From Pelagibacteraceae bacterium AG-337-G06 (GTDB lineage Bacteria > Pseudomonadota > Alphaproteobacteria > Pelagibacterales > AG-422-B15): a stretch of DNA of 64,000 bases. Shown in pieces: positions 21,542 to 30,432 of the stretch; the stretch's first letter is position 1; the number at the start of each line of letters is the position of its first letter. The DNA lies in the NCBI GenBank assembly GCA_003282175.1, contig QBZX01000003.1, positions 1-64,000 of the forward strand. The letters run 5' to 3'. The translations under genes and the position numbers were made by a program. The notes under the pieces are model-generated. The model was not told the DNA's origin, made no database searches, and was given only the letters and a program-made list of their open reading frames with translations.

Positions 21542-22564
21542 ATGAAAAAAAAAGCATTAATAACTGGCATTAATGGTCAAGATGGTGCTTATCTATCAAA
21601 GCTATTACTTGATAAAAACTATGAAGTATACGGAGCAATAAGACGTGGTGCTTCAGAAAAAACTGATCGTCTTGACACTCTTGGAATAACAAGCAAAATA
21701 AACTTTGTTGATTCTGATCTACTTGAAATTTCAAATATCCACCAAATTATTGAGGATATAGCCCCTACAGAAATTTATAATTTAGCAGCCCAGAGCTTTG
21801 TCCCTACATCTTTTGCACTTCCATTGTTAACATCAGATATAAATGCCATGGGGTGCCTACGAATTCTAGACAGTATTAAAAGAATAAACAAAGAAATAAA
21901 ATTTTATCAGGCTTCTACATCTGAAATGTTTGGAAAAGTTGCTGAAATACCTCAGACAGAAAATACCAGGTTACATCCACGAAGCCCTTATGGAGTATCT
22001 AAAGTTTACTCGCATTATATGACAATGAATTACAGAGAGACTTACGATATATTTGCTTGCTCTGGAATTTTATTTAATCATGAATCACCACTAAGAGGAA
22101 AAGAATTTGTAACTAGAAAAATAACATCATCACTTAATAAGATTAAGTATGGTTTACTAGATCACATGGAAATCGGAAATATGAATGCTGAGAGAGATTG
22201 GGGTTTTGCTGGAGATTATGTTAAAGCTATGTGGCTTATGCTAAATACTGATCATGCTGATGATTATGTGATTGCAACAGGTGAAAAACATTCAATAAGA
22301 GAGTTTATAAAATTGTCTCTTCACTTTCTAAATATTGAGACAGAATGGGAAGGCGAAGGACTAGATGAACGAGTTATTAATAAATCTGATGGCAATGTAA
22401 TAATTAAAGTCAGCCCTAAGTATTTTCGACCCGCAGAAGTTGATGAGCTGATTGGCTCACCTGAAAAAGCTAAAAATAAACTTAAGTGGGAACCAGAAGT
22501 AAAGTTTGAAGAATTAGTAAAAATGATGATTGAACATGACTCAAAACTTATAAAGCCAAACTAA
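21542..22564 (+). CDS. gmd: GDP-mannose 4,6-dehydratase
   Basis: 340 residues of extended SDR fold. The cofactor motif is GINGQDG at 9-15, followed by RRGASEKTDRLD, which binds the NADP ribose phosphate. The catalytic residues T126, E128, Y150 and K154 lie in ASTSEMFGK and SPYGVSK, and the family blocks LFNHESPLRGKEFVTRKI and MNAERDWGFAGDYVKAMW are intact. It makes GDP-4-keto-6-deoxy-D-mannose, the precursor of fucose, rhamnose or perosamine. No reductase or perosamine synthase partner is obvious in the window, although one DegT protein could act on it. Its stop is one base from the 3' end of the convergent tRNA-fMet gene. Confidence 0.93.
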   Translation: MKKKALITGINGQDGAYLSKLLLDKNYEVYGAIRRGASEKTDRLDTLGITSKINFVDSDLLEISNIHQIIEDIAPTEIYNLAAQSFVPTSFALPLLTSDINAMGCLRILDSIKRINKEIKFYQASTSEMFGKVAEIPQTENTRLHPRSPYGVSKVYSHYMTMNYRETYDIFACSGILFNHESPLRGKEFVTRKITSSLNKIKYGLLDHMEIGNMNAERDWGFAGDYVKAMWLMLNTDHADDYVIATGEKHSIREFIKLSLHFLNIETEWEGEGLDERVINKSDGNVIIKVSPKYFRPAEVDELIGSPEKAKNKLKWEPEVKFEELVKMMIEHDSKLIKPN

Positions 22565-22565
22565 T

Positions 22566-22642
<77 letters not shown>

Positions 22643-22884
22643 ACACTGCTTTTCTTGGCCTTTTTTCGTCACTGGTTTCATTTCACTATATTCCTGAAAC
22701 GAACTTGCTACAAAAACTCTTCGCCTAAAGACTTATAAATAAAGGACACTTAGGCAAACCCTCATAAAATTTGCTCCACCCTTAATTCAGTTATGTCCAG
22801 GTAAAGTAAAAATAACTTACACGAATAGGAAATATAGTCAAATTGTTAGAATGCTTCTCTCAATTTTAAATTTTATAAATAATA
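22643..22884. other. Intergenic leader upstream of tRNA-fMet with two hairpins
   Basis: About 240 bp without a gene. Read on the minus strand, it contains a 9-bp stem pairing 22720-22728 with 22750-22758 (one G-U) and a 6-bp stem pairing 22675-22680 with 22695-22700. It must carry either the tRNA promoter or the processing region if the tRNA is made as part of the rRNA/ugd/PhyH transcript. I recognise no known small-RNA family (no SRP Alu-type or tmRNA features). Confidence 0.4.
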
Positions 22885-23781
22885 TTATACGTTAGTATAT
22901 ATTCTTCTATTTTTTCCCTCTACACGTGACTTATTAGATTTGGACTTGTCTACTCTTGTATTATTCACTTTATTTTGAGATAACATTTTGTCAATAAGAG
23001 TCTTTTTCTTATTTCTTTTTTTTATTAGATAACGAAGGGATATTCTAAAATTCTCTTTTTCTCGTTTTGCCAAAGCAGATCCATGAAGAGTATTACTGGT
23101 CCACATATAAACTTGTCCTGCTTCACCAACTAACATTTCTTTTTTAAATTTCTTAAAGGTTTTATTATCTGAGCTCACTTCAAGAAATTCTTTATCTTTC
23201 GAATTTCTAATATTATGAGGGTAAGGTAGGCAACCAAGAGTATGACTCTTTTTTAATATATGGAGGGGAGACATATACTTGTCTACTTTATTTAGATAAA
23301 TATACATTGTAATAAATTTATTACTTTTATTATTCCAATCTATTGAGTCCATATGAAAATCTGAGCCTTTAAAATAAGTGACATCTCTATATTCTTTTTT
23401 TACATACGAATTTAGATTAGACACATAATTTCCTTCAATTAATTTTTTTAAATAATTTGGGAGCCAACTTTTAGGAACTGCAACTACAAATTTAGCCAGC
23501 ATGATTTCATATTCATCACCGAGAATTTCCGATAAAATTGCTTTAATCCTTGGATTCTCATCGATGAATTCTAAATTAACTTTATCAACTAAATTCTGAA
23601 CACCTTTCCCAGGGTTAGATTTTGACATTTGAGGTTTGTCATCTTTAGAAATAAATAGTTTTTTACCCCAGGGCCTATCTTTTTTTAATGTATTAAAAAG
23701 TTTTCTGCATTCCTTTTGGTTTAATAAGTCAGTAAAACTCACAAAACCATTCTTTTCAAATGCATTTAATTTTTTTTTCAT
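22885..23781 (-). CDS. Phytanoyl-CoA dioxygenase (PhyH)-family Fe(II)/2-oxoglutarate oxygenase
   Basis: 298 residues of double-stranded beta-helix type. The iron facial triad is H143-x-D145 (DFHMDSID) with H233 (NTLHGSA), and R246 (FRISLRY) is placed to bind 2-oxoglutarate. The last 40 residues are lysine/asparagine rich and low in complexity. PhyH proteins in polysaccharide loci hydroxylate small molecules or sugar substituents; the substrate here cannot be named. It lies between ugd (137 bp upstream) and tRNA-fMet, on the same strand as the rRNA operon. Confidence 0.8.
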   Translation of the reverse strand: MKKKLNAFEKNGFVSFTDLLNQKECRKLFNTLKKDRPWGKKLFISKDDKPQMSKSNPGKGVQNLVDKVNLEFIDENPRIKAILSEILGDEYEIMLAKFVVAVPKSWLPNYLKKLIEGNYVSNLNSYVKKEYRDVTYFKGSDFHMDSIDWNNKSNKFITMYIYLNKVDKYMSPLHILKKSHTLGCLPYPHNIRNSKDKEFLEVSSDNKTFKKFKKEMLVGEAGQVYMWTSNTLHGSALAKREKENFRISLRYLIKKRNKKKTLIDKMLSQNKVNNTRVDKSKSNKSRVEGKNRRIYTNV

Positions 23782-23918
23782 AAAGTCTACTATCTCTAGC
23801 GAAATATATTATGTTAAAATTAGAAAAAAGATATTATTTAAAAAAAGAGATTTTATATTCAAAAATGTTAATAATGTAATGTTTTTTTTGAATTTTTTTC
23901 TTACTCCATAAGATTCAG

Positions 23919-25091
23919 CTAATTCTTTTGGAAAAGATCTCTGGAATATACTTTATCGAGAACATGATTTAAATTATCTGATAGCCTATTTGCAATAATC
24001 AAGTCAGATCGAGCTATGAAACTATTTAGATTAGATACAACCTCTATATCATTAAAATAGTTTTTATTAATGAACGGTTCGTAAAGTATAACTTTAATTT
24101 TCCTTCTTTTCAAATTATTGAGTATGTCTAGAACAGCACTTTCTCTGAAATTATCTGAACCTTCTTTCATAATTAATCTATATACACCAACTGTATCTGG
24201 ATGCTTATTTAAAATTGACTTAATTACAAAATCTTTTCTTGTTTTGTTTGCTTCTACTACAGCTTTTATAATATTATTTGGTATCTTATTAAAGTTATCA
24301 AGCAGTTGCTTTGTATCTTTAGGTAAGCAATAACCTCCATATCCGAAAGAAGGATTATTGTAATAATTGCCAATTCTTGGATCAGCGCTTACGCCTTGTA
24401 TTATTTTTTCAGAGGATAATTTCTGTATTTCCGCAAAACTATCAAGTTCATTAAAAAAAGATATTCTCATAGCAAGAAACGTATTTGAAAAAAGCTTGAC
24501 TGCTTCTGCTTCTTTAGACTTCATTTTAAATAATTGTATATCTTGTTCTGAATAGAAAGAGCAATCTAATAACATCTCACCAAACTTAACTGCTTTTTTT
24601 GACTTGCTTCCTATTACAATTCTCGAAGGATAAAGATTATCATAAAGTGCCTTAGTTTCTCTTAAAAACTCTGGAGAAAATATTATATCTGCTTTATTAA
24701 ATTTATTTCTCATTTTGTCAGTAAAACCTAAAGGAATAGTTGACTTGATTATTATTAATCCTTTTGAATTAATTTCTAAACAATCTGAAATTACTCCCTC
24801 AACTGTTGATGTATCGAAAGAACCAGTCGTTACATCATAATTTGTAGGAGTTGCTACAATGATAAAATCAGCATTCGAATAAGCTTCATTTTTGTTTATA
24901 GTTGATTTTAGCTTAAGTGGTTTGTGTAATAGAAAATCTTCTAACTCAGCGTCTTTGATCGGGGATTTTTTATTGTTTATATTTTTAACGCGATCTTTGG
25001 AAATGTCTAAGGCAACAACATCATATTTTTGAGCTAGTAGAACTGCTAAACTAAGCCCCACGTAACCTGTACCAACGACACAAATTTTCAT
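23919..25091 (-). CDS. ugd: UDP-glucose 6-dehydrogenase
   Basis: 390 residues, the length of the short bacterial form. The NAD-binding GTGYVG is at 7-12, SPEFLRE at 139-145, K199 lies in AEAVKLFSNTFLAMR, and the catalytic cysteine C255 is in GGYCLPKDT. It oxidises UDP-glucose to UDP-glucuronate for acidic polysaccharide. The ATG is only about 45 bp beyond the 5S processing stem, with no U-tract terminator between, so it may be transcribed by read-through from the rRNA promoter. No ribosome-binding site is evident before the start. Confidence 0.92.
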   Translation of the reverse strand: MKICVVGTGYVGLSLAVLLAQKYDVVALDISKDRVKNINNKKSPIKDAELEDFLLHKPLKLKSTINKNEAYSNADFIIVATPTNYDVTTGSFDTSTVEGVISDCLEINSKGLIIIKSTIPLGFTDKMRNKFNKADIIFSPEFLRETKALYDNLYPSRIVIGSKSKKAVKFGEMLLDCSFYSEQDIQLFKMKSKEAEAVKLFSNTFLAMRISFFNELDSFAEIQKLSSEKIIQGVSADPRIGNYYNNPSFGYGGYCLPKDTKQLLDNFNKIPNNIIKAVVEANKTRKDFVIKSILNKHPDTVGVYRLIMKEGSDNFRESAVLDILNNLKRRKIKVILYEPFINKNYFNDIEVVSNLNSFIARSDLIIANRLSDNLNHVLDKVYSRDLFQKN

Positions 25092-25134
25092 ATGTAAACA
25101 ATAAAGTGCAAAGAGTAATTGTAAAGTGACAATA

Positions 25135-25282
25135 ATTTCACGTTTAGTAGACCTGGCAATGTCCTACTCTCCCATGCCTTAAGACAAAGTACCATCGGCG
25201 CTGGAGCCCTTAACTTTCGAGTTCGAAATGGAGTCGCGTGTAACCTCTCCGCTATAACCACCAGGTCAACAAAACGTGAAAT
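25135..25282 (-). other. 5S precursor processing stem
   Basis: The 11 bases at 25135-25145 (ATTTCACGTTT on the plus strand) are the exact reverse complement of 25272-25282, enclosing 5S with a few bases to spare. This is the expected double-stranded RNase target around a 5S precursor. The right arm overlaps the outer 23S stem arm, so the two structures are mutually exclusive or sequential. Confidence 0.6.
25150..25267 (-). rRNA. rrf: 5S ribosomal RNA
   Basis: About 118 nt bounded by the terminal helix GACCTGG/CCAGGTC, with the conserved CGAACTCGAAAG loop region and the GGGAGAGTAGGACATTGCC 3' half. It follows 23S by about 90 nt. Perfect 11-nt complementary flanks (25135-25145 with 25272-25282) would form the precursor processing stem. 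Confidence 0.95.
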
Positions 25283-25339
25283 CAATACCAAATTTTATTT
25301 TATTAATTATTCTATCTTAGTGTTGCTTGTATCTTACTA

Positions 25340-28116
<2,777 letters not shown>

Positions 28117-28222
28117 TTAAATGTCTTTTGCAATACTTTTTGATATTTTGAATTCTCAATAAAAATTTTATTAATTTAGTATTGATGTCACTTCACGATG
28201 TAAATGGAAAAGCTTAAAACTT

Positions 28223-28298
28223 TGGTGGAGCTGACCGGGATCGAACCGGTGACCCCCTGCTTGCAAAGCAGGTGCTCTCCCAGCTGAGCTACAGCCCC
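28223..28298 (-). tRNA. tRNA-Ala (TGC)
   Basis: 76 nt with encoded CCA; acceptor GGGGCTG/CAGCTCC, anticodon loop TTTGCAA. It lies in the 16S-23S spacer, the standard place for this tRNA. Confidence 0.97.
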
Positions 28299-28314
28299 AA
28301 GAGAAACCACGTCA

Positions 28315-28392
<78 letters not shown>

Positions 28393-28421: not shown

Positions 28422-30107
<1,686 letters not shown>

Positions 30108-30432
30108 CAATTAACTTTTCCAATAGCATAATCGCGCAGGCAGATATCATTTTTCCATTAGAAAAATAAAAAATGCCAGATTGATTATATTAAGACTAAA
30201 ATAGTCATATGCCGCAGGTTCAGAGCATCACCGAACAAGGGTGAACGTTTTTTTATTGTATTGAGCCAAAAAGTCAAGCATCAAACATAAAATTAGGCAG
30301 AAAATAAGCACTTTTCACTCATATATAATATCCAATAATATCAATGGGATAGAGAGTATAAAATCATTTTATCTCTTAAGACTAATATTAGTGATGTCAT
30401 AAAATATAAATTCTTTATATGAAGAGTTGAAA

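Follow-up and report, generated by a model that had tools for sequence, protein, structure and literature searches.

In SAR11 (Candidatus Pelagibacter), a hypervariable island of surface-polysaccharide genes, HVR2, abuts the rRNA genes, which serve as its conserved edge for exchange (Wilhelm et al. 2007, PMC2217521); in SAR11 subclades IV and V the rRNA operon is reported to be unsplit (PMC7318151). Bacterial rRNA precursors include a pre-23S RNase III stem, alongside a 9S precursor of 5S (PMC8708148, a review). In Enterococcus faecium, a broken terminator allows an rRNA operon to drive the inserted downstream vanHAX genes (PMC11702846).

Here we examine a locus from a SAR11-related marine bacterium in which ugd follows the rRNA (rrn) operon (Table 1). 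The window is the whole stretch of DNA analysed, 64,000 nucleotides in length. As in HVR2, variable polysaccharide genes lie beside the rRNA genes, and the first gene and the distance to tRNA-fMet differ between relatives, with gmd and ugd present in the window. Unlike HVR2, which splits 23S from 5S, the island here begins after 5S: 23S and 5S are adjacent and the operon is intact. A long-range stem flanks 23S, as in the RNase III pre-23S system; however, a further arm is found past 5S, and because of this arm the stems would form a three-way junction around both 23S and 5S. Protein genes follow 5S directly on the same strand, as do vanHAX in E. faecium, but whereas a rho-independent terminator is broken there (PMC11702846), here there is a conserved promoter-like element ahead of the gene. 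That element recalls bacterial leaderless mRNAs, in that the −10 lies 6 nt before the ATG and a ribosome site is absent, the start being predicted from sequence.

Table 1. Features of the rRNA–ugd region, in window coordinates.
Feature	Position	Strand	Remarks
16S rRNA	28507..29995	-	sole copy found in genome
tRNA-Ile + tRNA-Ala (16S–23S spacer)	28223..28392	-	
P1 5' arm GTGAAGTGAC (tRNA-Ala/23S spacer)	28187..28196	-	invariant in 31 genomes
P2 5' arm ATCAATACTAAAT	28174..28186	-	MFE and consensus fold
23S rRNA	25359..28094	-	
P2 3' arm ATTTGGTATTGAT (23S–5S spacer)	25281..25293	-	
P3 5' arm TTCACGTTT, extends 5S closing stem	25272..25280	-	covariation
5S rRNA	25151..25265	-	Rfam RF00001
P3 3' arm AAACGTGAA, directly after 5S	25137..25145	-	covariation
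P1 3' arm GTCACTTTAC	25121..25130	-	+21 to +30 after 5S; pairs with GTGAAGTGAC
Putative −35 TTTACA	25120..25125	-	overlaps P1 3' arm
Putative −10 TATTGT	25098..25103	-	6 nt upstream of ATG
ugd, UDP-glucose 6-dehydrogenase, 390 aa	23919..25091	-	ATG 25091; PF03721/PF00984/PF03720
PhyH-like ORF, next island gene past ugd	22885..23781	-	weak Pfam match
tRNA-Met (CAT), tRNA-fMet of the first-pass annotation	22566..22642	-	variable position in relatives

The gap between 5S and ugd

Pfam and NCBIfam both place the ugd product among the UDP-glucose 6-dehydrogenases; its match to PRK15057 (1.5e-150) falls under that model's curated cut-off. The first-pass annotation, which took 23919–25160 as a unit (ugd, the spacer and the final bases of 5S), proposed that ugd may be driven by read-through from the rrn promoter: it starts some 59 nt downstream of 5S on the same strand, and the gap was said to contain neither a U-tract terminator, nor a ribosome site, nor an obvious promoter. 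The spacing is as described (5S edge at 25151, ATG at 25091). So too are the first two absences, there being no intrinsic terminator pattern anywhere in 22500–25500 and no Shine-Dalgarno sequence upstream of the ATG. Both are nevertheless uninformative, because terminator patterns are no more frequent than chance in a 20-kb sample of the window (6 found, compared to 6.9 expected from shuffles) and Shine-Dalgarno sequences are uncommon: in 318 kb of the genome such tetramers are uncommon ahead of starts, and most starts have none. Rho is encoded in the genome. Upstream of 16S (~260–290 nt; 30250–30300 in the window, and in relatives) is a conserved block, CTTGACTT / CTTGACTTTTTGGCTC, which is the probable rrn promoter.

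Genes occupying the slot after 5S

For comparison we used 31 genomes of the same family, the window genome included, with the 3' flank of 5S. The gene after 5S differs among them: ugd is found in eleven, with a sugar epimerase, a formyltransferase-like protein and others elsewhere; in seven genomes the gene is convergent, and in six of these its stop codon lies 23–49 nt past 5S. Judged by these occupants, the slot is the edge of an exchangeable surface-polysaccharide island at which ugd is not fixed. The notion that 5S-adjacent ugd represents a single inherited lineage was rejected: these ugds form no clade, six label changes are seen and clustering is no tighter than in shuffles.

These data bear on the proposal that ugd lacks its own promoter and is transcribed by polymerases that leave the rrn promoter and read through past 5S. 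The vanHAX precedent and a 59-nt gap with no U-tract or identified terminator are in its favor, as is the direction of the first genes, which are co-directional in 23 of 30 genomes – an excess compatible, however, with read-through and a promoter alike. Against it, relatives do not consistently carry ugd at this position, and the six convergent genes end so close to 5S that the rrn transcript would have to stop there or run antisense.

In four genomes belonging to one family (f2) of the same order, a small same-strand ORF lies ~8–15 nt after 5S. It encodes ribosomal protein L36 (rpmJ), as recognized by Pfam in one genome and by similar sequence in the other three. These genomes offer a better case for co-transcription of 5S and an mRNA than does ugd, because a promoter would have to sit inside 5S.

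Pairing between the 23S leader and the 5S trailer

The motif GTCACTTYAC is present past 5S in all 31 genomes, regardless of the next gene and even where that gene is convergent; the order is invariably the 3' half of P3, a variable linker and then the motif. In 318 kb of the genome the only GTCACTTYACA is the one at 5S, and on this basis we rejected the idea that the motif marks 3' ends in general. A local GTGA...TCAC hairpin past 5S was also rejected as a terminator, because its left arm changes (to CATGA or ATGTTA) with no matching change on the right side, whereas a long-range partner fits.

This partner lies ~3 kb away, in the spacer between tRNA-Ala and 23S. The two arms (P1) are complementary and preserved across relatives, with a mean of 9.5 of 10 pairs formed compared to 7.3 in shuffles. 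Among departures from perfect complementarity, pairing survives 33 transitions (C to T opposite G, A to G opposite T) and is lost with one; it is lost too with 16 transversions, most of which lie at the motif ends and in a single genome carrying a deletion. Since the upstream arm is invariant, the case for P1 is made by pair-keeping substitutions and not by two-sided covariation. Sequences adjacent to P1 form P2, in which the tRNA-Ala/23S spacer pairs with the 5S leader. In P3, 281 of 300 cells are paired, with compensatory changes at three inner pairs; slides of one base give 127 and 139. A three-way junction of P1, P2 and P3 is recovered both in the MFE fold of the window and in the consensus fold of 30 genomes, each computed with 23S replaced by a loop.

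Substitutions across the 31 genomes retain this long-range stem through wobble pairs, and the rrn precursor therefore very probably continues into the 5S–ugd spacer, to at least 25121. To this extent the read-through proposal gains ground: P1 places the rrn transcript inside the spacer. The stem itself would be a pre-rRNA processing stem.

Beyond the family, a search of 384 further genomes of the class that tolerated up to one mismatch did not find the exact 5' arm of P1. Analogous pairing of a 23S leader with a 5S trailer is strong in one other alphaproteobacterium, suggestive in two and absent in two. The strong case, from another alphaproteobacterial family, is a perfect 13-bp pairing of AATAGGGTTCATG in the 23S leader with CATGAACCCTATT in the 5S trailer, equalled in none of 100 shuffles. 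No account of a junction between a 23S leader and a 5S trailer turned up in a literature search that covered few subscription journals.

A putative promoter for ugd

The earlier statement that ugd has no obvious promoter is not borne out by comparison across relatives. The window carries the arrangement TTTACA-N16-TATTGT-N6-ATG (25125–25098 for the promoter-like pair), with the −35 supplied by the last bases of the P1 3' arm. The −10 ends 6 nt upstream of the ATG, and the ATG itself is therefore the predicted start of a leaderless mRNA; no Shine-Dalgarno sequence precedes it. Taken in the window alone this match is no better than chance, hits being as frequent in shuffles, and a consensus promoter scan of the window was accordingly dropped as uninformative. 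Single-sequence scores mean little in AT-rich DNA and the support for a promoter is thus comparative.

With genomes treated as independent (not wholly true of them), small counts and a test chosen after inspection of the alignment, a TANNNT −10 at a spacing of 16 or 17 is present in 12 of the 20 relatives whose next gene is co-directional and in none of the seven where it is convergent (p = 0.008; before the motif of one genome was correctly placed, 11 of 20 and p = 0.02). TTTAC itself is found in 13/20 and 1/7, respectively (p = 0.03). Among co-directional relatives with TTTAC or TTTGCA, 11 of 13 have TANNNT at N16/17, compared to a shuffle mean of 2.2 that never exceeded 8 in 2000 trials. 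By spacing, TANNNT has nine occurrences at 16 and three or fewer at every other value. In these nine genomes the T, A and T of the −10 are invariant – supporting evidence only, as the first and last positions belong to the selection criterion – and the spacer is 45% identical. Start codons fall 59–66 nt after 5S in 14 of the 20 co-directional relatives, for ugd and unrelated first genes alike. The −10 is missing in eight of the 20; three of these start just 45–53 nt after 5S. Genome-wide, the leaderless signal from TANNNT offsets is weak.

Three alternatives can be weighed against these counts. The post-5S motif could be an rRNA processing or termination element and nothing else, its neighboring −10 a chance likeness and ugd expressed in some other way. 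Retention of the motif beside convergent neighbors is in keeping with this, as is the abundance of promoter matches in shuffled AT-rich DNA; but the −10 count at a spacing of 16–17 lies above all 2000 shuffles, and its absence from all seven convergent cases makes this reading very improbable. For read-through as the sole source of ugd transcripts, entry of the precursor into the spacer is the part that finds support. The claimed lack of a promoter is the part that does not, since the spaced −35/−10 pair is confined to relatives whose next gene is co-directional, and we regard read-through of this kind as improbable.

It is somewhat easier to entertain, if still unlikely, that both operate: a leaderless promoter would give basal ugd expression, and polymerases arriving from rrn would supplement it by read-through or, when growth is fast, occlude the promoter. 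Occlusion would follow from rrn polymerases crossing the −35. The bases common to the P1 3' arm and the −35 agree with this arrangement, and a dedicated terminator is not visible; no sequence feature, however, singles it out.

We conclude that ugd is probably transcribed from a promoter of its own, in which case rrn read-through would be unneeded to explain its expression.

Genes downstream of ugd

The first-pass annotation extended coupling with rRNA, as a possibility, to the PhyH-like gene and to tRNA-fMet. PhyH after ugd was found in the window genome and in no other genome examined, and its ATG is preceded by a promoter-like TTAACA-N17-GATAGT. In relatives tRNA-fMet lies 1.3–12 kb downstream, in either orientation, and a search upstream of it found no conserved sequence among them. 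Given the unique placement of the one and the variable position of the other, such coupling is not a conserved design, and this part of the proposal is not supported. TTGACA-like sequences lie some tens of bases upstream of tRNA-fMet in seven relatives, which suggests that in several it has its own promoter. In the window (22560–22642) the end of tRNA-fMet (22566) and that of the convergent gmd (22564) are one base apart, so that their transcripts must overlap or terminate inside each other.

Discussion

The explanation that we favor, with reasonable though not strong confidence, is that ugd is transcribed from its own TTTACA-N16-TATTGT promoter as a leaderless mRNA, with the −35 overlapping P1 of the junction, at the edge of an exchangeable island. 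Transcription would begin at the ATG or within one or two bases of it. The promoter would be attached to the rRNA transcription unit at its 3' end: P1, P2 and P3, the last being the lengthened stem of 5S, would form a three-way junction that closes the 23S–5S part of the precursor, and the −35 hexamer would overlap the 3' arm of P1. As the rrn transcript is predicted to continue for 30 nt or more beyond 5S, rrn polymerases would cross the −35 region of ugd. The edge of the island would stay fixed, while an incoming co-directional gene would tend to carry a −10 at the right spacing.

More tentatively, the 3' arm of the pre-rRNA junction may double as the −35 for whichever gene fills the first slot of the island, an extension about which we are rather more doubtful than hopeful. 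If so, the structure of the rRNA precursor would both constrain and supply the promoter of swappable genes.

The locus carries a warning: a missing terminator or ribosome site is poor ground for proposing rRNA read-through in genomes that rarely use either. If the favored explanation is true, it provides a testable map of pre-rRNA ends in an uncultured relative of SAR11. One short conserved sequence would serve both the maturation of rRNA and the transcription of exchangeable surface genes, and this would explain how genes swapped into the rRNA-adjacent island can be immediately expressed.
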